Assembly (NCBI RefSeq): GCF_016481275.1
Contig: NZ_JAEMNW010000001.1
Coordinates: forward strand, 1-64,000
DNA: 64,000 bases
Direction of reading: 5' to 3'
DNA from: Antrihabitans auranticaus
Lineage (GTDB): Bacteria; Actinomycetota; Actinomycetes; Mycobacteriales; Mycobacteriaceae
Shown here: one piece after another, positions 14,055 through 57,652 of the stretch
Layout: every line of letters begins with the position of its first letter
Position numbering within the stretch: the stretch's first letter is position 1
Position numbers and translations under genes: made by a program
The notes under the pieces: generated by a model
Databases searched by the model: none
Told to the model about the DNA's origin: nothing
Seen by the model: only the letters and a program-made list of their open reading frames with translations

Positions 14055-16379
<2,325 letters not shown>

Positions 16380-16595
16380 ATATGAAGTTGATCAGTCCCG
16401 ACGAGCGGGCCCGAAGGGCCACCACCGACCCGGTTGCGTATGCGCACAACGCAGGTGGCTGCGCGATCGCTTCTTCGACAGGCGACGGCTGCCGGTCCGC
16501 CCTGGACCGTTGGTCGATCCGCTCATGGTGGTGTGCGGTTGTCATGTGCCGTCTGCGACGCAGGCGGCCCGACTCCGCGCGTACTGTCGGGAACC

Positions 16596-17405
16596 GTGAA
16601 CTTCGTCCTGGTCGACAAGCCGAAACCGCACATCGCCCTGGTCACGCTCAACAGACCCGAGCGCATGAACGCCATGGCGTTCGACGTGATGATCCCGCTG
16701 AAAGAAACCCTCGAGGCGATCAGTCACGACAACACGGTCAGGGCGGTCGTCGTGACCGGAGCAGGGCGTGGATTCTGCTCGGGCGCCGATCAGACTTCGG
16801 CGGGCAGGCCACCCCACATCGACGGCTTGACCCGGCCATCGGTTGCGTTACGCGCGATGGAAATGCTCGACGACGTGGTCCACGCTTTTCGGCGCATGCA
16901 CCAGCCTGTGATCGGAGCGATCAACGGCGCCGCGATCGGCGGAGGATTCTGCTTATCCCTCGCAACGGACATCCGTATCGCCTCGACGGAGGCTTACTTC
17001 CGGGCCGCCGGAATCAACAACGGACTGACCGCCAGCGAACTGGGCCTCAGTTATCTACTGCCGCGCGCGATCGGTTCTTCGCGAGCGTTCGAGATCATGT
17101 TGACCGGTCGCGACGTGACTGCGACGGAAGCCGAGCGAATCGGCCTCGTCTCCAAGGTGACCGAACCCGGTGCATTGATCGACGAATGCGTGGACCTAGC
17201 GGACCGCATTTCCGAATTCTCCCGTCCCGGCATCGAACTGACGAAGCGCACACTGTGGTCGGGACTCGACGCGGCGAGCCTTGCGCAGCACATGAATCAG
17301 GAGGGGCTGGGACAACTGCTCGTCCGAATGTCGACGGACAACTTCGAAGAAGCGACGCGCGCTCGAAAAGAGAAGCGGCGACCAGTCTTTCGCGACGAGC
17401 TCTAA
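16596..17405 (+). CDS. enoyl-CoA hydratase/isomerase family protein
   Basis: Crotonase-fold enzyme acting on acyl-CoA thioesters, probably in fatty acid oxidation. The roughly 269-residue protein has both oxyanion-hole segments (TGAGRGFCSGAD and INGAAIGGGFCLSLATD) and the catalytic glutamate region TASELGLSYLLPRAIG, so hydratase activity is plausible. The frame opens further upstream, but crotonase homology starts at the GTG at 16596 (NFVLVDKPKPHIALVTLNRP). Its stop overlaps the convergent amidase by 4 bp. The orphan LexA box lies 217 bp upstream. Confidence 0.9.
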   Translation: MNFVLVDKPKPHIALVTLNRPERMNAMAFDVMIPLKETLEAISHDNTVRAVVVTGAGRGFCSGADQTSAGRPPHIDGLTRPSVALRAMEMLDDVVHAFRRMHQPVIGAINGAAIGGGFCLSLATDIRIASTEAYFRAAGINNGLTASELGLSYLLPRAIGSSRAFEIMLTGRDVTATEAERIGLVSKVTEPGALIDECVDLADRISEFSRPGIELTKRTLWSGLDAASLAQHMNQEGLGQLLVRMSTDNFEEATRARKEKRRPVFRDEL

Positions 17406-18130
17406 GCCCCCACATACTGGAGGATCGCGTCTGCGATCGCCTGCGCATAATGCTGGCGGCCCTCGGGTGCAGACAGCACCGCCGCTTCGACGGGGTTGCG
17501 CATATTGCCGCACTCGACCAGTACCGCCGGCCGGTCAGCCAGGTTCAGACCCGCGAGGTCGGCTCGCTCCTGCAATCCACCCGATCCTGCATAGTTCGAC
17601 GGGACGAACCCCGAACCGACGAAGGCATCGCGCATCGCCTGTGCCAAACGCAGCGACGGTTCGCCCTGGCTTTCGTTCAACGGCGGAGCCGAATGGGCAA
17701 CATGAAATCCAGCACCCGTCGGAGTGGCACCGTCGGCATGAATCGACACGACGGCATCGGCCACGCTGCGATTTCCGATCGCGGCACGCTCGTCGACGCA
17801 CGGGCCGAATCCCGCGTCATCATTCCTCGTCATGACCACCTGCACGCCGCGGGCGGCGAGCAGATCGCGGACGCGGAGCGACACGTCCCACGTGAACGCG
17901 TGCTCCGGGTACCCCGCGTCAGTCGAGGTCCCAGTCGTGTTGCACGGCTTCGTGTTTCCACGTCCAGCCGGAACCAGCCTGTCGAGTTCGCCGGGATTCG
18001 CCGCATTTCCACCGTTGTGCCCAGGGTCGAGCACGATCAAGGGCCCTCCGGCCGAATTAGCGGTCGGCACCCCGAACACGCCCATCGCACAGCTCAGCGC
18101 CACGACGAGAAGGAGCCGACGACTAGACAC
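17402..18130 (-). CDS. secreted N-acetylmuramoyl-L-alanine amidase
   Basis: Zinc-dependent peptidoglycan amidase of the Amidase_3 family, related to mycobacterial Ami1 (Rv3717). The 242-residue precursor has a signal peptide (RRLLLVVALSCAMGVFGVPTA). Zinc-site segments are LDPGHNGG, the glutamate in GYPEHAFTWD, and VSIHADG; the late catalytic glutamate is in VLVECGNM. Two cysteines (CNTTGTS and FGPCVDE) may form a disulfide. No separate cell-wall-binding domain is present. GTG start overlapping the upstream unknown gene by 8 bp, suggesting a shared operon. Confidence 0.9.
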   Translation of the reverse strand: MSSRRLLLVVALSCAMGVFGVPTANSAGGPLIVLDPGHNGGNAANPGELDRLVPAGRGNTKPCNTTGTSTDAGYPEHAFTWDVSLRVRDLLAARGVQVVMTRNDDAGFGPCVDERAAIGNRSVADAVVSIHADGATPTGAGFHVAHSAPPLNESQGEPSLRLAQAMRDAFVGSGFVPSNYAGSGGLQERADLAGLNLADRPAVLVECGNMRNPVEAAVLSAPEGRQHYAQAIADAILQYVGA

Positions 18131-19154
18131 CGCTCAACATCGCCAGCGTCGAGTCCGACAGAAAGAACGGTTCGAGACGCTTGCGGATCTCAGCCGTCAG
18201 CATCCCGTCCTTGTTCGCCGCATCGAGAACCGACGGGCCGTAGGCAACGATCTCAGCGACGAGGTCGGCGCCCGTCAGACCAAGTTCGGGCAGCAGGCCG
18301 GCAATCGTGTGCGACCCGTACTTGTCGAAGAACACATCGATGCACTCCTCGAGAACATGCCCGAAGTACTCCTTGTTTCGTGCTGACTCGACGAGGTCGT
18401 GAATGATCAAAACCAGATCGCGAAGCTCTTGCTGGCTCAGGTACTCGCGGAGGCCGCTGACCTTCTCGTCGGCATGCAGGTCCCAGAGTTCCATTGCCGC
18501 GTCGTGCAGTGGTGCATCGTGGATGAGTTCACGAATCGCACTGTTGGTGCGGCGCAACGCGTACTGCGCACCCTTGCCCGCGACGTCGCCGAGGAACTGG
18601 TCGAGATGCCTATCCCCTGCGCTGCGAACCTTGCTGGCCGCGCTCGCGCCGACTTTGAGGAACGTCGACATCCCCGGCAGCTTCTCGGCTCGCGCACGAT
18701 TGGTCGCCAGGAAGTCCGAGACGATCTTGTTGACGAAACTCGAGGCCACGTTGGCGACGAGCGGACTCTCCGTCAAACGCTCTAGCGCCAGGTCCTGCGC
18801 GGTGTGCATCGCCAGCACGTGCTCGATCAACGCAGCCACCGGCTCGCGATCGACCACGTCGCCCAAGGTGTATTCATCGCTGGCCGAGAGGTCGTATATG
18901 GCGTCAGCGATTGCCGTCGCCATCTCCTCGATGATCGCGCTGCCGCCGATCTTGTCGACCAGCCTGTGGCCCGACTCCTTGACCTGGGCGCGATCGATGA
19001 CGTCGCTGACGACCATCGTGTCCGCAATCCGGAGGACGTCCGCGACGTCGCGCTCGACCACCTCTGCGAAGCGGTGGCCGCTCAACTCCCCCAGCACGAA
19101 CTCGACCTGTGCCTCCAAAAGCTTCTCGGCAAGATCCTGTGCATCCGTGGTCAC
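18123..19154 (-). CDS. conserved actinobacterial protein of unknown function
   Basis: 343 residues, no recognised family. The sequence is acidic and appears almost entirely alpha-helical, with no signal peptide and no long hydrophobic segment. Features to note are an N-terminal EKLLEAQVEFVLGEL, a basic central stretch around LKVGASAASKVRSAGDRHLD, and a C-terminal helical region ending in LEPFFLSDSTLAML. It sits between an unknown 141-residue gene (4-bp overlap) and the peptidoglycan amidase (8-bp overlap). The operon context hints at a link to the cell envelope, but I cannot assign a function. Confidence 0.8.
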   Translation of the reverse strand: MTTDAQDLAEKLLEAQVEFVLGELSGHRFAEVVERDVADVLRIADTMVVSDVIDRAQVKESGHRLVDKIGGSAIIEEMATAIADAIYDLSASDEYTLGDVVDREPVAALIEHVLAMHTAQDLALERLTESPLVANVASSFVNKIVSDFLATNRARAEKLPGMSTFLKVGASAASKVRSAGDRHLDQFLGDVAGKGAQYALRRTNSAIRELIHDAPLHDAAMELWDLHADEKVSGLREYLSQQELRDLVLIIHDLVESARNKEYFGHVLEECIDVFFDKYGSHTIAGLLPELGLTGADLVAEIVAYGPSVLDAANKDGMLTAEIRKRLEPFFLSDSTLAMLSGV

Positions 19155-19576
19155 TCGGTCCCCTTTGTGTCATCACTGTCGTGTGTGTGCATCGCGCGAC
19201 GGATCTCTTCCAGGCGCTTGTGCCCTGCTTCTTCACGCTCTTGCCACTGCTCTTGCACGGATCTTCCGGGTGACGTCTCTGCGTTCAGTTCGCTCGATCC
19301 GACCGACCGGCCGAGTCGCTCGCGGACCTTGTCGCGAACGCGATCGAAGGTCGGAACGCCACCTGCGGTGTAGTCGGGCGGTGAGAACGACGACGTCGGA
19401 AGCTGAAGCGGCGCAGGGACATCCGGCGTTGCCGGGATCAGCGCCACCGGTTGACCGGACGCCGCCTCGTGCAAGTCCGACAGCCCCGGCCTGCCCTGCG
19501 TGGCGTCACGGACAACGTCACGTAGCTCCTGATCGGACAAAGCCTTCAGCGCAACAACAAGTTCGTTCACAACCAT
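19151..19576 (-). CDS. small hydrophilic protein of unknown function
   Basis: 141 residues, not recognised. The N-terminal helix VALKALSDQELRDVVRDATQ is followed by a proline-rich, probably disordered middle (residues about 45-75) and a charged helical C-terminus, QEQWQEREEAGHKRLEEIRR. No signal peptide or membrane segment. It is the first gene of a tight three-gene unit with the 343-residue protein and the amidase, which suggests that all three act together. No ribosome-binding site is strong; the ATG at 19576 is the first in frame. Confidence 0.7.
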   Translation of the reverse strand: MVVNELVVALKALSDQELRDVVRDATQGRPGLSDLHEAASGQPVALIPATPDVPAPLQLPTSSFSPPDYTAGGVPTFDRVRDKVRERLGRSVGSSELNAETSPGRSVQEQWQEREEAGHKRLEEIRRAMHTHDSDDTKGTE

Positions 19577-19611
19577 GCCTCCTCCACGCCCCCACCCAGG
19601 CTACGTCGTGT

Positions 19612-22080
19612 TCATGCCCGCAGCGTTGCTCCGACCGCCGCTGTTGCTGCGGCGACCGCTGCGTCGCGCGCGGCCGTCGCCTCGTCTTCGGTGAGGGTCC
19701 GGTCAGTCGCACGGAAACGCAGCGCAAACGTCAGAGACTTACTGCCACCCAGCTGTTCGCCCTCGTACACGTCGAACAGACGTATGTCCTCGAGAAGTTC
19801 TCCGCCACCTGTCCGCAGCGCAGACTCGACTGCACCCGCCGGAACGTCCTTGCCCACCTTCACCGAAACGTCTTGCAGCACAGCAGGGAACGCGGATACC
19901 ACAGGCGAAGGCAAGTTCTCCAGGATCGGCAGTGCATCGAGGTCGAGTTCGAGCGCGCAGGTCCGCTTGGGGAGATCGGACCGCTCGAGCACCGCCGGGT
20001 GCAACTCGCCCGCATGTCCGACGACGACACCGTCGACGAGCAACTCGGCACAGCGGCCCGGGTGCCAAGGCAAATGCTGGGCGGCACGGCGTTCGATCGT
20101 CACCCCTGCGGCCGCCGCGATCGTGTCGACTGCCGCAAATGTGTCTGCGGCATCGCCGTTGCGCCCAGGTCCCCATGGGCCGTTGAGCTCTCGGTGTCCC
20201 GTGAGGACCGCGGCAATATGCACCGGCTGATGCGGCAGGGACTCGACCAGAACAGCGATTTCCGCGTCGGTCGGGCGCCGGTCTACCGGCAAGGGCTCGA
20301 CAGCCCGCGTGTTCGGGCCAGGCAAAACCACCTGTGCGACGCCGAAGATCGCCAGATCACGCTGACCGCGGGAAATATTGCGACCCGCGACTTCGAGCAG
20401 TCCGGGAAGCAACGTCGTCGCGAGTTCGGGCCGGTCGGCCTCCAGCGGATTGAGCACCCGGGAGGTGACACGACGCGGATCGTCGGCGTCGAGGCCCCAG
20501 GTGTCGAACACGCCGGTCGGCAAGAACACGGGCGGAGGCACTTCGGCGTACCCGGCGTACGCAAGCGCTCGACCGATCGCGCGACGTCGCTTCTGTCCAG
20601 GGGTCAATCCGCGTCCGGGCGGCGCGGGCGGCAACACAGAGGGGATCTGCTCGAGGCCTTCGAGTCGCAATACTTCTTCGACGAGGTCCGCCGGCTGGAC
20701 GAGGTCGGGCCGCCAGCTCGGCGGAGTCACCACCAACTGCCCGTCTTCGACTACCGCACAACCGATTTGGACCAAACGAGCTGTTGCTGTTCCGCGTGGG
20801 TAGTCGACGCCCGCGGTCCGGGCTGGGAGGTCCTCGTCCATTCGGATCGCCGGACGTGCACCTGGATCGCCCCCGATATCGGTGAGCAGCGGTTCGACGC
20901 GACCACCGGCGATCTCGACCAGCAACGTCGCAGCGCGATCGAGCGCCGCGATGTTCAGCGCGGGATCTACGACACGCTCGAAGCGCTTGCTCGCCTCGGA
21001 CGAGAGCTTGTGCCGCCGAGCCGTCCGGAAGATCGCCAACGGATTCCATGTCGCTGCCTCGAGCAGGATGTCGGTCGACTCCGACGAAACCTCCGTCGTC
21101 GCGCCGCCCATCACACCAGCGAGCGAGATGACACCGGTGTCGTCGACTATCACAACGTCCTCGGGATCGAGCACCCGCTCGGCGTCGTCGAGAGTCCGCA
21201 GCTTCTCGCCCGCGTTCGCGCGCCGGACGATCAACTCGCCCCGGACTTTTGCCACGTCGAATGCGTGAAGTGGCTGGCCGAGTTCGAGCATGACGTAGTT
21301 GGTGACGTCGACCGCAGGGGAGATCGGGCGCACGCCGGAAAGCAGCAACCGCCGCTGCAACCACCACGGGCTGACTGCCGTCGGGTCGATGCCGGTCACC
21401 TTGCGCAAGGCGAACCTCGTTGCGCTCGAGCCTGGATCGACGGTGACCGGCCAGGCCAGACCGGTCGACGGCGGCGACTCGAGGTCGGCCGGGTCGGCAA
21501 ACGCCAGGTCGAATCCGCACGCCAGCTCACGAGTGAGGCCGCGGACCGAGAAGCAGTATCCGCGGTCGGGCGTGATGTTGAGCTCGATGATCGCGTCACC
21601 GAGGCCCAGCAGCTCGTTGCCGTCGGAACCGGGCTCTGCGGTACCGGGCTCGAGCACCAGAATTCCGGAGTGATCCTTGCCGATACCGAGTTCGGCGACC
21701 GAGCAGATCATGCCGTCGGAGACACGCCCATAAGTCTTACGCGACGCGATCGCGAATCCACCCGGGAGAACCGCACCGGGCAACGCCGCCACGATCAAGT
21801 CACCGACGGCAAAATTGCGGGCGCCGCAGATGATTCCGCGCGGTTCGGACTCGCCGACGTCCACCTGGCAGAACCGGATCGGCTTCTTGAACTCGGTCAG
21901 CTCCTCGATCTCGAGCACACGGCCGACCACAAGGGTGCCCGTCACCGGAGCGAGGATATCCAGCTCCTCGACCTCCAGGCCGACGCGGACGAAGCCCGCA
22001 TCCAGTTCCTCGGGGGTCACAGACCAGCCAGGGTTGGCGCGCTGCAGAATTTCGGTCAGCCACGATTGCGCTACTCGCAC
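19612..22080 (-). CDS. pheT: phenylalanyl-tRNA synthetase beta subunit
   Basis: Large subunit of the alpha2-beta2 PheRS. The 822-residue protein has the N-terminal tRNA-binding OB domain (about 40-150), the B3/B4 editing region, the B5 domain, a catalytic-like core and the C-terminal ferredoxin-fold anticodon-binding domain ending in [17 protein letters not shown] start. The gene begins 30 bp after pheS and is cotranscribed with it. Length and order are typical. Confidence 0.98.
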
Positions 22081-22110
22081 GTCAGGATCGCTCTCGTCTC
22101 GTCGAAAGAA

Positions 22111-24027
<1,917 letters not shown>

Positions 24028-42451: not shown

Positions 42452-45277
42452 ATGCGTATCTCGCGGCCGCTCGAGGCCGGGCGGCGAAATCTTCTGCGGC
42501 CCGCGATCATCGTCGCCGTGCTCGCTCTCGTCGTCGTCTCGGGCTTCTTCTACCTCGACCGGGACACCCGAATCAGCGTTGCGACAGAGGATGTCACGGT
42601 CACGGTCCCCGCGGGCCCTGGTGAGCCGGGTACGGTCGCCATCGACGCCGAGCTCTACTTTCCCGCGACCACACCCGCGCCAGCTGTTCTGCTGGCGCAC
42701 GGATTCGGTGGCAGCAAGGACTCGATCGCCGGACAGGCACGCCAACTGGCGCGCGACGGCTTCGTCGTGCTCGCCTACAGCGCACGCGGTTTCGGCAAGA
42801 GCACAGGATCGATCTACATCAACGATCCCGAGCACGAGGTGGCGGACGCACGGGAACTGGTCACGTTTCTCGCGGGTCGTAGCGACGTCGATCAGGACGG
42901 CCCCGGCGATCCGCACGTCGGCGTCGCGGGAGCTTCCTACGGCGGCGCGCTTGCGCTGATGCTCGGCGGTACGGATCCACGAATCGACTCGATCGCAGCC
43001 GCGGTGACATGGAACGACCTGGGACAGGCCCTGTTCCCGAACTACGCCCAGGTGCTCGCGGGCGGTAGTAAGCCCGCGACCCCACCGACGCCGACAGCGC
43101 CGGTCTACACCGGACCGGGCGTGCTCAAACGTGCGTGGGCCGGGATCTTCTTCGGTGTGGGCGCCGAACCCGTGGGGACCCGGCCCTCGACCGGCCTCAC
43201 CGGCGACCTGTGCGGGCGGTTCGCCGAATCGGTCTGTCAGGCGTATGCCCAGTCCGGAATCACAGGTTCGCCGACGCCCGAACTTCTCGACCTCATGCGG
43301 AACCATTCGCCCGCGCCCTACGTCCGCAACATCACCGCACCGACCTTGCTCATCCAGGGCGAACGCGACACCTTGTTCGGACTCGACCAGGCCGACGCCA
43401 ATGCGCGGGAGATCGCTGCCGGCGGCGCACCCGTCGAGGTTCGGTGGTTCAACGGCGGTCACGACGGCGATGCGGCACGAGCGGATTCCACGATTCGCGC
43501 CTGGCTGGGGAACACGCTGCGCGACGACGACCCTGGCTCTGCCCCTTTCAATTACGCATTGCAGGGCCCACCCAACGAGGAGGGCCAGATACCGAGTAGG
43601 CGGATGAGTGCAGCCGACTACCCGGGACTCGGTGGAAACGCGGCGACGCCGCGCACGAGCCTGGAATTGAACTCGCCGACCGCGAGTCCGCAAACGATCG
43701 TGCGACCGCCTGGCGCAACTCCCGGAACGGTGTCCAGCGTGCCGGGTGTCGGATCGGCGTTGTCGTCCGCCCTTACGGTCGCCGGCCTCGACGTGATCGG
43801 CCGCGACCCACCCGGTCAATCCGCGATGTTCTCGACGAAGGCGCTCGCCGGACCGCTGGCAATCGTCGGATCGGCGATCGTCGACCTGCGCGTCCATGCC
43901 TTTGCCGCGCCGGGCGAGTCCGTCTTGTTCGCAAAGCTCTACGACGTCAGCAACGAGGGCCGCCGAATGCTACCGGGCGGCGCGGTATCGGCAGTTCGCC
44001 TGCCGGATTCGCCCGACGGCTCCCCCGTAGACGTCCGGGTGACGCTGCCCGCAATCGCGTATCGGGTGCTGGAGGGCCATCACATCGAGATCGTTGTCGG
44101 CACGACCGACCAGGCCTATGCGGTTCCCCTCAATCCCGCAGTCTTCAGCGTCGACCTCGTCGGTGCTCAGTTGCTCGTGCCGACCGTCGAGGGCGCGACG
44201 GCCGCGAGGTCGGTACCGCTCGCGCCGCTTTTCGGCATCGCGGGAATCGCAGGCGCGCTCGGGGTATTGATCGTCGGTGCGATCGTCCGTTCCAGGATGC
44301 GCGGAACAGCCGACGCCGATCCGGCGTTGGCCGACACGCCTCTCGTGGTGTCGGCGTTGACGAAGACGTATTCAAACGGCTTCCGGGCGGTGGACGGTGT
44401 GAGCTTCGTGGTCGAGCACGGTCAGGTTCTCGGCTTGCTCGGCCCTAATGGCGCAGGAAAGACGACAACGCTGCGCATGGTGCTGGGCTTGATCAAACCG
44501 CAGGGTGGCGAGGTCCGCGTGTTCGGCCACAAGGTCACTCCCGGCGCACCGGTGTTGTCGCGGTTGGGCGCATTCGTCGAGGGGCCGGGTTTGTTGCCGC
44601 ATCTGTCCGGCATCGACAACCTGAAGCTGTTCTGGCGCACCACGGGACGGCCCCACGAGGATGCCGCATTCGACGAAGTCATTCGCATTGCCGACCTCGG
44701 TAGCGCGATCGAACGCAAAGTCCGCTCCTACAGCCACGGCATGAAACAGCGACTTGCGATCGCGCAGGCGATGCTCGGCCTGCCTGATCTGCTGATTCTC
44801 GACGAGCCAACCAACGGGCTCGATCCCCCGCAGATCCGCACGATGCGGGATGTCCTCACCGAGTACGCCGGCGGCGGCAGGACCGTCGTGGTCTCGAGTC
44901 ACCTTCTCGCGGAGGTCGAGCAGACCTGCACACACGTTGTGGTGATGAACCAAGGAAAGGTGATCAGCGCGGGCTCGGTCCGTGACCTCGTGTCCGCGGG
45001 CGGGCCGACGGAGATTCGCGTCGACGACGCAGCCCGCGCAGCCGACGCGCTTGCCGACGTTGCCGGTCTGGGCACCGTGATCGCCACCGACGGCGACAGC
45101 CCGAAGCTTCGGATCGACCTGGGCAAGGTCGCGCCCGCCGACGTGGTCCGCAGGTTGGTCGACGCCGGTGTTGCCGTCAGCAGCGTGGCATCTTCGACGA
45201 AACTCGAAGATGTGTTCCTCGCCCTCGTACACGATCCGAGAGCGACCCGCGAGCCCGAGAAGGATCTGGCGCGATGA
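42452..45277 (+). CDS. membrane-anchored alpha/beta hydrolase fused to ABC transporter ATPase
   Basis: 941-residue fusion. Residues 15-35 form a membrane helix. About 45-420 is a CocE/X-prolyl-dipeptidyl-peptidase-like hydrolase with VLLAHGFGGSKDS, nucleophile elbow GASYGG (Ser162), acid in QGERDTLFG and histidine in NGGHDGD. About 440-585 is the beta-rich jelly-roll domain of that family. A second membrane helix (593-612) leads to an ABC ATPase (632-941) with Walker A GPNGAGKTT, signature YSHGMKQRLAIAQ and Walker B LLILDEPTNGLD. Predicted topology puts the hydrolase outside and the ATPase inside. Its stop overlaps the permease start (ATGA). GGAGAG precedes the ATG. Substrate unknown. Confidence 0.9.
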   Translation: MRISRPLEAGRRNLLRPAIIVAVLALVVVSGFFYLDRDTRISVATEDVTVTVPAGPGEPGTVAIDAELYFPATTPAPAVLLAHGFGGSKDSIAGQARQLARDGFVVLAYSARGFGKSTGSIYINDPEHEVADARELVTFLAGRSDVDQDGPGDPHVGVAGASYGGALALMLGGTDPRIDSIAAAVTWNDLGQALFPNYAQVLAGGSKPATPPTPTAPVYTGPGVLKRAWAGIFFGVGAEPVGTRPSTGLTGDLCGRFAESVCQAYAQSGITGSPTPELLDLMRNHSPAPYVRNITAPTLLIQGERDTLFGLDQADANAREIAAGGAPVEVRWFNGGHDGDAARADSTIRAWLGNTLRDDDPGSAPFNYALQGPPNEEGQIPSRRMSAADYPGLGGNAATPRTSLELNSPTASPQTIVRPPGATPGTVSSVPGVGSALSSALTVAGLDVIGRDPPGQSAMFSTKALAGPLAIVGSAIVDLRVHAFAAPGESVLFAKLYDVSNEGRRMLPGGAVSAVRLPDSPDGSPVDVRVTLPAIAYRVLEGHHIEIVVGTTDQAYAVPLNPAVFSVDLVGAQLLVPTVEGATAARSVPLAPLFGIAGIAGALGVLIVGAIVRSRMRGTADADPALADTPLVVSALTKTYSNGFRAVDGVSFVVEHGQVLGLLGPNGAGKTTTLRMVLGLIKPQGGEVRVFGHKVTPGAPVLSRLGAFVEGPGLLPHLSGIDNLKLFWRTTGRPHEDAAFDEVIRIADLGSAIERKVRSYSHGMKQRLAIAQAMLGLPDLLILDEPTNGLDPPQIRTMRDVLTEYAGGGRTVVVSSHLLAEVEQTCTHVVVMNQGKVISAGSVRDLVSAGGPTEIRVDDAARAADALADVAGLGTVIATDGDSPKLRIDLGKVAPADVVRRLVDAGVAVSSVASSTKLEDVFLALVHDPRATREPEKDLAR

Positions 45278-46146
45278 CCGAATCTGCCATGGCGACAACG
45301 CATCCCGATGGTCGTGCGCCCGGCTTCAGACCCACACGGACGTTGTCGATGAGGGTCGAGCTTGCTCGCCAGATCCGGCGGCGGCGCACGCAGCTTGCCA
45401 TCGGGTTCCTCGCAATACTGCCCGGAATACTGGCTGCAGCCTTCGCGTTGGGCGGCGGAAACGGGGAGTCGGGTGCCGGCGGGCTGATCGAGCTCGCTAC
45501 GCAGGGCGGCATCAACTTCACCGTGTTCTGTCTCCTGATGTCTGTCGGATTTCTGCTGATCGTCGTGGTCGCCCTGTTCTTCGGCGATTCGATCGCGAGC
45601 GAGGCTTCGTGGTCCAGCTTGCGATATTTGTTGACGATTCCGATACCGCGCTCGCGGTTGCTGCTGCAGAAGGCAGCGGTTTCCGCTGTGCTGTCGATCG
45701 TCGCGATCGCAGTTCTGGTGCTTGTCGCGCTCGCACTCGGTTCGGCCCTGTACGGGGTCGAACCGCTCGTGACGCCTTTCGGCGATTCGATGGCGTTCGG
45801 CTCGGCGATCGGTCGGCTTGCCATCGCACTCGGTTACGTCGTCGTCAGCCTGATGTGGATTGCGGGACTGGCCTTGTTGTTGTCGGTCTGGACCGATGCG
45901 CCGCTCGGCGCAGTCGGCGGGACTGTGATGGTTGCGATTCTCGTCGAGATCCTCGATCAGATCACTGCACTCGGACAGCTCCGAAATTTGCTTCCAGGTC
46001 ATTTCGGTTTTGCGTGGACCCGTGCGTTCGCGCCGACCATCGACTGGCACGACGTCGTGATCGGGTCGTTCTCGTCGGTGGCCTACGCCGCGGTGTTCGG
46101 CCTACTTGCGTGGATTCACTTCTCCCGGAAGGACATCACCAGCTAG
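45274..46146 (+). CDS. ABC-2 type transporter permease
   Basis: 290-residue membrane protein with six hydrophobic segments (first about residues 42-60, last about 262-282) and a cytoplasmic basic N-terminus. It is the partner of the ABC domain fused to the hydrolase, being coupled to it by a 4-bp ATGA overlap. Motif SEASWSSLRYLLTIPIPRSRLLLQK matches ABC-2 permeases. Together they form an exporter whose ATPase subunit carries an extracytoplasmic hydrolase. Confidence 0.9.
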   Translation: MTESAMATTHPDGRAPGFRPTRTLSMRVELARQIRRRRTQLAIGFLAILPGILAAAFALGGGNGESGAGGLIELATQGGINFTVFCLLMSVGFLLIVVVALFFGDSIASEASWSSLRYLLTIPIPRSRLLLQKAAVSAVLSIVAIAVLVLVALALGSALYGVEPLVTPFGDSMAFGSAIGRLAIALGYVVVSLMWIAGLALLLSVWTDAPLGAVGGTVMVAILVEILDQITALGQLRNLLPGHFGFAWTRAFAPTIDWHDVVIGSFSSVAYAAVFGLLAWIHFSRKDITS

Positions 46147-46253: not shown

Positions 46254-46841
46254 ATGATCGGCAACGCTATGCCCCGAATTCCGTATGCGGACGCGGCCCG
46301 AAACCTACTCCGCGAGTCGGTCCTGACGGCTGTCGACGAACTCGTCCAAGCCAAGGGCTGGGCAGCGACAAGTGTCGCCACGGTCGCCCGCGTGGCCGGC
46401 GTGAGCCGACAGACCGTGTACAAGGAGTTCGGCTCACGACAATCGATTGCCGAGGCGTACATCTTGCGGCGGCTCGACTCGATTCTCGACGAGATCGACG
46501 CCAACATTCGCTCGAGCGACGACCTCGAAGCCGGGCTGCACACGGCGATCTCGCTGTTCTTCGACATCGTCGACGAGCCGCTTGTGCAGACCGTTCTATC
46601 CGGCGGTTCGACGCCAGAAGAGTTGACCGGAATCATCAAGGTCACCAACGAGCGTGCGACGACGCGGCTGGCGTCGATGTTCCAAGCGGTCCGCCCCGGC
46701 ATTCCGGATAGCGATGCGATCGTGTTCGGCGATGCGATCGCCCGTATTTGCGCAGCGCACGCTTTCGCACCGACGCTGCCCCGCGAGGAAGCAACCAATC
46801 GCGTGGTGCGTCTTGCGCTCGTCGTCCTCGCGGCGAACTGA
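46254..46841 (+). CDS. TetR family transcriptional regulator
   Basis: 195 residues with the TetR helix-turn-helix SVATVARVAGVSRQTVYKEFG and a C-terminal ligand domain. It lies 107 bp after the hydrolase-ABC/permease pair in the same direction, so it may regulate that exporter, its own gene, or the palindrome at 46169-46182. Start ATG at 46254; an ATG at 46269 is also possible. One base separates it from the convergent uvrB gene. Confidence 0.88.
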   Translation: MIGNAMPRIPYADAARNLLRESVLTAVDELVQAKGWAATSVATVARVAGVSRQTVYKEFGSRQSIAEAYILRRLDSILDEIDANIRSSDDLEAGLHTAISLFFDIVDEPLVQTVLSGGSTPEELTGIIKVTNERATTRLASMFQAVRPGIPDSDAIVFGDAIARICAAHAFAPTLPREEATNRVVRLALVVLAAN

Positions 46842-55436: not shown

Positions 55437-56864
55437 ATGCGAAGGTTCCACGTCCTGGCGGTCCTTGCGTTCCTACTTGCGACTGCATTCCTGAGTGGTT
55501 GCGGCGGGCCCGACGATTCGGACTCCAACGTCCTGCGTGTGGGCACCGAGGGCACCTATGCACCATTCAGCTATCACGATCCCGAGACCGGCGAACTGAC
55601 CGGCTACGACGTCGAGGTCATCGAAGCGATCGCCGAAAAGCTGGATCGGCGAGTCGAGTTCGTGGAAAGCCCGTGGCGGTCGATCTTCAACAACCTCGAG
55701 GCCGACCGCTTCGACGTCGTCGCGAATCAGGTCTCGATCAACGAAGACCGCAAGGCGCGATACGACCTGACCGAGCCCTACGTGCAGACCGACGGCGTCA
55801 TCGTCGTCCGCGCCGACGACGACCGAATCAAGGGCGTCGAAGATCTGCGGGGCAAGGTCGCGGGCCAGACATCGACGAGTAACTGGGCCGATTCGGCACG
55901 CGGGGCCGGTGCCGAGGTCGAGGACGTCGAGGGCTTCACCGAGGCCGTTCAGATCCTCAAGGACGGCCGCATCGACTTCATCATCAACGACAACCTCGCC
56001 GTGCTGAACTACCTGGCGGGACATCCGGACAGCGGCCTGAAGACGGTCGGTGTCGTCGGGGAGCAGAGTTCCCAGGCGTTCGCGCTGCGCAAGAACAGCC
56101 CCCTGACCGCCGAGATCAACAAAGCCATCGAAGACATTCGAGCGGATGGCACGCTCGAGGAAATCGGCGCCGAGTACTTCAATCCGGAGCCCAAGAGTCC
56201 GCGCAGCACAACGAAACTGGTGCTGGACACGCTGTGGCCGTTGGCGAAATCGGCGTTCACAGGGACGATCCCGCTTACCGCGATCAGCTTCGTTGTCGGA
56301 TTGGTGATCGCACTGGGTGTCGCGCTTGCGCGTCTCTCGGCGATCGCGCCGCTGTCCTGGCTGGCCCGGATCTACATCTCGTTGATTCGTGGCACTCCGC
56401 TGCTGGTCCAGCTGTTCATCATCTTCTTCGCACTCCCCCAAGCCGGCATCACGATCGAACCGTTCCCCGCGGCTGTCGTCGCGTTCTCACTCAACGTGGG
56501 CGGCTACGCGGCAGAGATCATCCGTGCCGCGATCCTCAGCGTCCCGCGCGGGCAATGGGAGGCGGCCGAAACCATCGGCATGGGCTATCGGACGACACTG
56601 CAGCGGATCATCCTGCCCCAGGCACTGCGGACCGCTGTTCCCCCGTTGTCGAACACCCTGATCTCACTGGTGAAGGACACGTCCCTTGCGTCGACGATCC
56701 TCGTCACCGAGATTCTGCGAACCGCCCAGATCGCCGCCGCACCGAGTTTCGAATTCTTCGCCCTCTACGGCACTGCCGCTCTCTACTACTGGGTGATTTG
56801 CCTGGTGTTGTCGTTCGGCCAGGACAAGCTCGAACATCGACTGGATAGGTACATCGCGAAATGA
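55437..56864 (+). CDS. polar amino-acid ABC importer, fused binding protein and permease
   Basis: 475 residues. The lipoprotein signal ends at lipobox LSGC (Cys22). Residues about 30-250 are a family 3 solute-binding domain (LRVGTEGTYAPFSYHD, FDVVANQVSINEDRKARYD), and residues about 260-475 a permease with about five helices and the ABC-coupling motif EAAETIGMGYRTTLQRIILPQA. The binding domain resembles cystine-type (TcyA/FliY) proteins, so cystine or a related amino acid is the best guess. Operon with the ATPase through an ATGA overlap. Start ATG at 55437. Confidence 0.9.
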   Translation: MRRFHVLAVLAFLLATAFLSGCGGPDDSDSNVLRVGTEGTYAPFSYHDPETGELTGYDVEVIEAIAEKLDRRVEFVESPWRSIFNNLEADRFDVVANQVSINEDRKARYDLTEPYVQTDGVIVVRADDDRIKGVEDLRGKVAGQTSTSNWADSARGAGAEVEDVEGFTEAVQILKDGRIDFIINDNLAVLNYLAGHPDSGLKTVGVVGEQSSQAFALRKNSPLTAEINKAIEDIRADGTLEEIGAEYFNPEPKSPRSTTKLVLDTLWPLAKSAFTGTIPLTAISFVVGLVIALGVALARLSAIAPLSWLARIYISLIRGTPLLVQLFIIFFALPQAGITIEPFPAAVVAFSLNVGGYAAEIIRAAILSVPRGQWEAAETIGMGYRTTLQRIILPQALRTAVPPLSNTLISLVKDTSLASTILVTEILRTAQIAAAPSFEFFALYGTAALYYWVICLVLSFGQDKLEHRLDRYIAK

Positions 56865-57652
56865 CGAGCAACGAGCATGTGACGAGCGCCGACGCCCGAC
56901 CGCTGATCGAAGCCACCGGCATCACGAAATCGTTCGGTGACAACAAGGTGCTGCGCGGTATCGACATCAAGGTGCCGCGCGGTTCGGTCACCACGATCAT
57001 CGGGCCGTCGGGTTCGGGCAAGACGACGCTGCTGCGTGCGCTCAACGCGCTGGATGCTCCAGACGGGGGCGTCGTCCGGGTGGGTGATGTGGAGATCGAC
57101 TTCGCCACCAAACCCAGCAGGGCCGCGCTCGGGAAGTATCGCGCGCAGAGCGCATTCGTCTTTCAGTCGCACAATCTCTTTCCGCACAAGACGGCGATCG
57201 AGAACCTCGCCGAAGGACCGATCGTCGTGCAGCGGCGGCCGAAAGACGAGGTGTACGCAGAGGCACGCGAACTGCTCGAACGAGTCGGGTTGGGACACAA
57301 GGAAGATGCGTATCCGAGTCAGCTTTCGGGCGGGCAGCAGCAACGCGTCGGCATCGCTCGCGCCTTGGCGCTACGGCCGAAGCTGATCCTCTTCGACGAA
57401 CCCACTTCGGCCCTCGACCCGGAACTGGTCGGCGAAGTGCTGAAGGTCATCAAAGACCTCGCGTCGAGCGGTTGGACCCTGGTGGTCGTCACGCACGAAC
57501 TTCAGTTCGCGCGTCAAGTTGCCGATCAGGTGCTGTTCACCGACGGAGGGCTGGTCGTCGAGACGGGCCCGCCAGCCGAGGTGATCGGCAACCCGAAACA
57601 TGAACGCACGCGCCGGTTCTTGGACCGGATTCTGAACCCCCTGGACGATTGA
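56861..57652 (+). CDS. polar amino-acid ABC transporter ATP-binding protein
   Basis: 263-residue ATPase for the preceding fused importer. Walker A GPSGSGKTT, Q-loop FQSHNLFPHKTAIENL, signature LSGGQQQRVGIARAL, Walker B LILFDEPTSALDPE and the H-loop VVTHELQFARQ are all present. It overlaps the upstream gene by 4 bp. With one fused SBP-permease this makes a two-gene importer. Confidence 0.93.
   Translation: MTSNEHVTSADARPLIEATGITKSFGDNKVLRGIDIKVPRGSVTTIIGPSGSGKTTLLRALNALDAPDGGVVRVGDVEIDFATKPSRAALGKYRAQSAFVFQSHNLFPHKTAIENLAEGPIVVQRRPKDEVYAEARELLERVGLGHKEDAYPSQLSGGQQQRVGIARALALRPKLILFDEPTSALDPELVGEVLKVIKDLASSGWTLVVVTHELQFARQVADQVLFTDGGLVVETGPPAEVIGNPKHERTRRFLDRILNPLDD

Follow-up and report, generated by a model that had tools for sequence, protein, structure and literature searches.

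In the systems described to our knowledge, an enzyme that works outside the cell with an ATP-binding cassette (ABC) transporter is a partner protein of its own. The hydrolases of the FtsEX system are separate proteins that cut peptidoglycan, and FtsX itself is a type VII membrane protein with an outer domain. NosD is also a separate protein, has a different fold and is not a hydrolase, and DrrA carries no hydrolase. Cleavage and export are combined in one polypeptide in the peptidase-containing ABC transporters (PCAT, C39), whose cysteine protease lies on the cytosolic side. Passages of PMC10694151 and PMC11627006 describe FtsEX as a system that pairs an ABC ATPase inside with hydrolase action outside. 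The window analysed here, that is, the whole stretch of 64,000 nucleotides of Antrihabitans auranticaus DNA (contig NZ_JAEMNW010000001.1, positions 1 to 64,000), contains a fusion gene in which a serine hydrolase is joined through the membrane to an ABC ATPase, and which is followed by the gene of an ABC-2 permease. Full-text searches of open-licence papers gave, in the portions returned, no description of this hydrolase-ATPase architecture, and the passages obtained from PMC11878206 and PMC4522959 do not describe it. The sole annotated relative encountered is named just 'alpha/beta fold hydrolase', a label which illustrates that annotation can conceal the architecture.

Architecture of the fusion protein and its permease

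The features of the two-gene module are as follows.

42452..45277, + strand: fusion gene, a single open frame of 941 amino acids (aa); domain order, from Pfam and relatives: hydrophobic N-terminus, serine hydrolase, jelly-roll, membrane helix, ABC ATPase
42500..42556, + strand: N-terminal hydrophobic segment, residues 17-35 (hydropathy and N-terminal letters)
42584..43531, + strand: alpha/beta-hydrolase core and cap, residues 45-360
42935..42937, + strand: Ser162, putative nucleophile, in G-x-S-Y-G-G (alignment of fused rows)
43211..43237, + strand: Cys254 to Cys262 in the cap, probable disulfide (alignment)
43367..43369, + strand: Asp306, putative catalytic acid, present in 63 of 63 fused rows
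43460..43462, + strand: His337, putative catalytic base, present in 63 of 63 fused rows
43547..44182, + strand: PepX_C-type jelly-roll, residues 366-577 (Pfam; strands in the model; within the PaL and CocE alignments)
44231..44287, + strand: membrane helix 2, residues 594-612, at the joint of hydrolase and ATPase (hydropathy)
44339..45001, + strand: ABC ATPase core, residues 630-850 (Pfam ABC_tran; motif columns)
45274..46146, + strand: ABC-2 (type V) permease of 290 aa with six predicted helices; its frame overlaps the fusion gene at ATGA

All three Pfam domains of the fusion score above their cut-offs: Peptidase_S15 at residues 62-308 (57.4 bits, cut-off 23), PepX_C at residues 399-562 (40.7 bits, cut-off 22.5) and ABC_tran at residues 648-788 (99.2 bits, cut-off 25). 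The predicted model has the hydrolase core plus jelly-roll fold of a CocE/PaL-type hydrolase. Ser162 is kept in all 61 fused rows that have a letter there, two further rows ending at contig ends, and the intact Ser-Asp-His triad supports a hydrolase that is active-looking. Cys254 and Cys262 are both kept in 61 of 63 fused rows and in 14 of 14 hydrolase-only rows. The two fused rows without them are close kin in which both cysteines are gone together, the behaviour of a disulfide pair.

The ATPase carries Walker A (GPNGAGKTT, 664-672), the signature (YSHGMKQ, 760-766), Walker B (LLILDEP, 780-786) and the H-loop histidine, His817, and invariant columns are found in all four motifs among 19 aligned sequences. 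A comparison of the two cores (hydrolase 51%, ATPase 68%) makes the hydrolase core the more variable one.

The start codon of the permease lies within the ATGA that closes the fusion frame. The permease matches ABC2_membrane_4 (31.2 bits, cut-off 27), and a structure comparison of its predicted model gives a fold resembling NosY and ABCG; a six-helix permease of this fold adjoining its ATPase is what characterizes the ABC-2, or type V, class. Its outer loops are only about 26-33 residues long and there is no large outer domain. When "permease next" is defined as a profile match starting -100 to +300 bases from the end of the fusion, the permease is directly downstream in 62 of 63 fused open reading frames (ORFs); the exception, L031, stops 2 bases from a contig end. 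Fusion and permease are thus a two-gene module.

Membrane topology

Residues 17-35 read like a signal anchor in this protein. In several relatives the stretch resembles a signal peptide that would be cleaved and, judged by eye, ends in the Ala-x-Ala typical of such peptides (for example in L014, L019 and L026). By hydropathy, the N-terminal stretch is over the threshold in 33 of 36 aligned fusions, two of the other three being cut by contig ends. Helix 2 is present in all 36, and in 33 of them at least three lysines or arginines fall within the next 15 residues. The helix, its basic flank, the N-terminal stretch and the paired cysteines together put the hydrolase on the outer and the ATPase on the inner side of the membrane, a predicted topology with good support. 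Helix 2 begins 13-22 residues past Pro577 across the fusions, a gap which would keep the enzyme near the membrane.

The first-pass annotation, made from the letters of the window alone, had proposed one polypeptide with two membrane helices, an apparently active serine hydrolase with a jelly-roll domain (Ser162 in GASYGG) and an ABC ATPase, together with a coupled ABC-2 permease. Each of these proposals is borne out by the domain scores, the hydrophobic segments, the conserved triad and the gene overlap described above; its topology, with an outer hydrolase and an inner ATPase, is supported as a prediction.

Distribution of the fusion

A scan of genome contigs gave 61 loci. Both parts lie in one ORF in 35 of these (L009-L043), and the other 26 have an ATPase match only. 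The recurrence of the one-ORF state in 35 of 61 loci, together with the permease that follows 62 of 63 fused ORFs, means that the fusion is not a product of chance. Among the named hosts are Antrihabitans, Smaragdicoccus, Actinomycetospora, Virgisporangium, Kitasatospora, Microbispora, Subtercola, Ornithinimicrobium and Micromonospora.

A whole-chain profile built from 19 sequences matched, at 1e-150, 73 of 296 genomes and 31 of 115 genera of the source organism's class. Of the 75 rows in this survey, 71 cover nearly the full model and 4 are partial: G232 and G173, in frames that could accommodate a whole fusion, G252, a 700-aa frame without the first quarter of the model, and G280, which is split across two contigs. 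The phylum survey, at 1e-100, matched 28 of 396 genomes, 25 with the fusion and 3 with the ATPase but no hydrolase. The 25 comprise 23 full-length rows, a separately confirmed case (G473) and one in two contig pieces (G592), and 12 of them are outside the class. Within the source organism's family the fusion occurs in 18 of 61 genomes and 9 of 31 genera. It is also found in three genomes of 1.3-1.4 Mb (G025, G062 and G286). All these counts are lower bounds, as 2, 3 and 15 candidates were scored per genome in the phylum, class and family, respectively.

The first-pass annotation had named a split between hydrolase and ATPase in most relatives as the result that would speak against it, and had called for a taxonomic survey. 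The surveys found the fused state as the rule, and the fusion to be widespread in actinobacteria. A frameshift or an assembly chimera is rejected by the full-length fusions in three surveys. Against a clean one-frame picture stand the possibly broken G252, the rows of G123 and G133, each of which reads through one TGA, and G280 with its two contigs. Outside the phylum, a search at 1e-90 in the phylum of G654 (Heyndrickxia), covering 149 genomes with 6 candidates each and no positive control, found no fusion, and none of the 3 genomes reached through the loci has it, which is weak evidence of absence.

Relatives without the hydrolase or the ATPase

A hydrolase tree built from 45 of the 77 rows (34 fused and 11 hydrolase-only; L158, L159 and L162 left out) separates the fused rows from the others by a branch supported at 100/99. 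A tree of 62 of the 77 rows places the 'hydrolase-only' L158 among the fused rows. L158 is a fragment cut at a contig start, and the remainder of its gene is in G280:C25.

The source genome also has a paralogue (G000:C21:103319-104329; L002, L110), a 339-aa ATPase that keeps the anchoring helix, has no hydrolase and is followed by its own related permease. The two further genomes of its genus in the family survey gave no match to it at 1e-100. ATPase trees were built from 62 and 44 of 83 rows. L110 adjoins the source sequence's own clade (95/87, 44 rows) on a long branch, and is most simply explained as a copy that lost its hydrolase. The bootstrap of the 44-row tree is unsettled, and one far ATPase (A_L026) was taken into it by a name match. 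The hydrolase-free pairs L143-L145 are near the fused row L153 with a support of 96 in the 62-row tree, a placement that the 44-row tree leaves unresolved. Because L110 and L143-L145 are placed within or next to the fused rows, the state 'fused' requires three changes on both ATPase trees. A single fusion event with later losses would fit this pattern. The trees are unrooted, so the hydrolase-only group may instead have lost an ATPase.

The source genome also encodes, unfused, a secreted-looking S15/PepX_C hydrolase whose gene immediately follows those of an ATPase and an ABC2_membrane_3 permease (L175, 4998-8901, - strand, G000:C18). It was considered as a split version of the system and rejected: a similar hydrolase (1e-60) occurs in just 2 of 40 other genomes of the family and not in the same-genus G817.

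Proposed mechanism and alternatives

The first-pass annotation had offered two readings, an exporter that cleaves or matures its substrate on the outer face and a hydrolase powered or gated by ATP, and the present findings are compatible with either. The reading favoured here, tentatively, is that of an exporter whose outer-face hydrolase cleaves its cargo. The fixed pairing, the type V permease and the lipase-like enzyme outside suggest an exporter with a hydrolase of its own, to which the cargo is passed. One type V ABC exporter would consist of two copies each of the fusion and the permease, a presumed 2+2 stoichiometry. The cytoplasmic ATPase domains would bind and hydrolyse ATP, and a small molecule, probably amphipathic or acylated, would be driven out, either through the paired six-helix permeases or from the membrane itself. 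As the cargo emerges, the outer hydrolase, held near the membrane on its linker of 13-22 residues, would cut it at an ester, amide or acyl bond; pump and enzyme would share one substrate. Cleavage would mature the exported product, or render the removal of an unwanted compound irreversible. The greater variability of the hydrolase is what a change of substrate would predict.

Several points weigh against this proposal. That transport runs outward is an assumption based on the type V fold, and the fold matches come from VIA re-alignment. In the hydrolase, both membrane segments and parts of the cap are weakly modelled, and the faster change of the hydrolase may merely reflect its outside location. 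Two of the 14 hydrolase-only ORFs are cut by contig ends, and in the 12 others no permease is found anywhere in the locus. Beyond the permease, no conserved neighbour names a substrate.

A possible but somewhat unlikely alternative is an ATP-gated hydrolase, in which nothing would be transported and the ATPase cycle would shift the membrane helices and toggle the outer hydrolase in an FtsEX-like manner. It would suit the single chain in which ATPase and enzyme are linked by one helix and a short outer linker. NosY is the top-ranked solved permease, tied with ABCG, and NosFY appears in PDB titles in complex with NosD. NosFY may act on NosD in a similar way, perhaps a precedent for gating. A passage of PMC10694151 has FtsEX activating outside hydrolases in mycobacteria and Gram-positives. 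The permease, however, with its six predicted helices, type V fold and lack of a large outer domain, is unlike FtsX; an ATPase-permease pair of the same kind exists hydrolase-free, and the triad is kept in hydrolase-only relatives that have no adjacent gate. An ATP-driven surface hydrolase, in which the cytoplasmic ATPase cycle would exert mechanical control over a lipase-like enzyme outside the cell within one membrane-spanning chain and the permease would be a hinge and not a pore, is unlikely. Self-protection appears quite unlikely: here the pair would expel a membrane-active compound (an antibiotic, a lipopeptide or a toxic ester) and the hydrolase would destroy it outside, blocking its return. 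The best curated ATPase models, DrrA and a lantibiotic-protection ATPase, point this way although the scores are far under their cut-offs, as does the patchy presence in the source organism's family; yet the fusion is retained in the three 1.3-1.4 Mb genomes, which would be unlikely carriers of luxuries, no conserved resistance or biosynthesis neighbour was seen, and the TetR gene described below is local only.

It is improbable that the ATPase chain serves just to tether a secreted esterase to the membrane, with no relation between the two activities. Hydrolase-only relatives with N-termini that look signal-like by eye and no adjacent transporter would agree with this, as would the L110 paralogue with its helix and no hydrolase, but one helix or a lipid would be cheaper, the fusion keeps its permease in nearly every ORF, and the outer linker lengths span a narrow range. 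Very improbable is an uptake system, with the outer hydrolase releasing a nutrient that the ABC part imports. Nutrition is a frequent role of secreted S15-type hydrolases, and some ABCA and ABCG proteins import; against uptake, the three scanned proteins contain no substrate-binding domain and the permease fold is of the exporter type. With hydrolase and ATPase joined in a single chain across many genera of the phylum, even in genomes of 1.3 Mb, any coupling of ATP use inside to bond cleavage outside becomes testable by point mutants in one protein.

Neighbouring genes and other observations

One further gene stands close to the module.

46254..46841, + strand: TetR-family regulator, 107 bases past the permease, outside the conserved module

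The TetR gene had been presented in the first-pass annotation as following the permease, which it does (TetR_N, 37.2 bits). As the regulator of a conserved unit it is rejected, having no homologue in place in relatives: none was found beside the pair in 35 loci at E 1e-3 (one weak 57-aa match lies elsewhere in L038), in 14 further loci at the same threshold, or in 20 loci at 1e-4, 14 of them fusion-bearing, the ORFs searched in these last two sets being chosen greedily. Upstream of it are an 11-base inverted repeat (91%, 61 bases apart), a 7-base pair and a 7-base palindrome; upstream of the fusion there is one 10-base inverted-repeat pair.

In the ORF listings, read partly by eye, the permease is the sole neighbour that recurs in more than close kin. 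In two of the 1.3-1.4 Mb genomes, G025 and G062, it is followed by one and the same small protein that looks membrane-bound or secreted (L090, 8713-9327, + strand; L091, 3648-4307, - strand). The hydrolase-only genes in L101, L103 and L106 adjoin genes which, from their first residues, we take to be sucC/sucD-like. Elsewhere in the window, a solute-binding domain (SBP_bac_3) is fused to a transporter permease domain (55437-56864, + strand) and followed by an ATPase (56861-57652), an importer with a built-in binding protein. Frames of 702 and 1740 aa (16298-18406 and 18403-23625, + strand) have no Pfam match at 1e-6; they overlap long frames of the opposite strand and are probably shadow frames.

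Comparison with known systems

Matches to defence and phage families in PADLOC and PHROGs were rejected as a lead, since they fall in the ATPase or in general esterase parts. Among curated NCBIfam models the ATPase is nearest DrrA (TIGR01188), a likeness to the DrrAB-like ABC-2 exporters, but its score of 193.5 bits is well short of the cut-off of 312.45, which places it outside DrrA proper; the lantibiotic-protection ATPase model gives 174.6 bits for a cut-off of 309.75. Unlike PCAT, the fusion has a serine hydrolase predicted to be outside, and no C39 cysteine peptidase is matched in it at 0.001 (Pfam).

The likeness to FtsEX with RipC, CwlO or EnvC lies in an ABC ATPase inside and a hydrolase outside. 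The difference is in the permease, which has a type V fold, no FtsX-family match at 0.001 (Pfam) and none but short outer loops, and so falls outside the FtsEX/MacB (type VII) group. NosDFY is an ABC transporter for the maturation of a copper enzyme. The sequence match of the permease to NosY is weak (E 0.091), and the outer part of the present system is a hydrolase; no NosD partner or nos neighbourhood was noticed in ORF listings, the neighbours not having been scanned by profile.

Tyr44 assists catalysis in CocE. The oxyanion region of the fusion is HGFGG, in which a counterpart of Tyr44 is not obvious, a comparison made without structural alignment. CocE/PaL/PepX-type hydrolases (S15 plus PepX_C) are free enzymes, whereas the C-terminus of the fusion continues through the membrane into an ABC ATPase. 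Each half is of a known kind, and the new part is their joining through the membrane.
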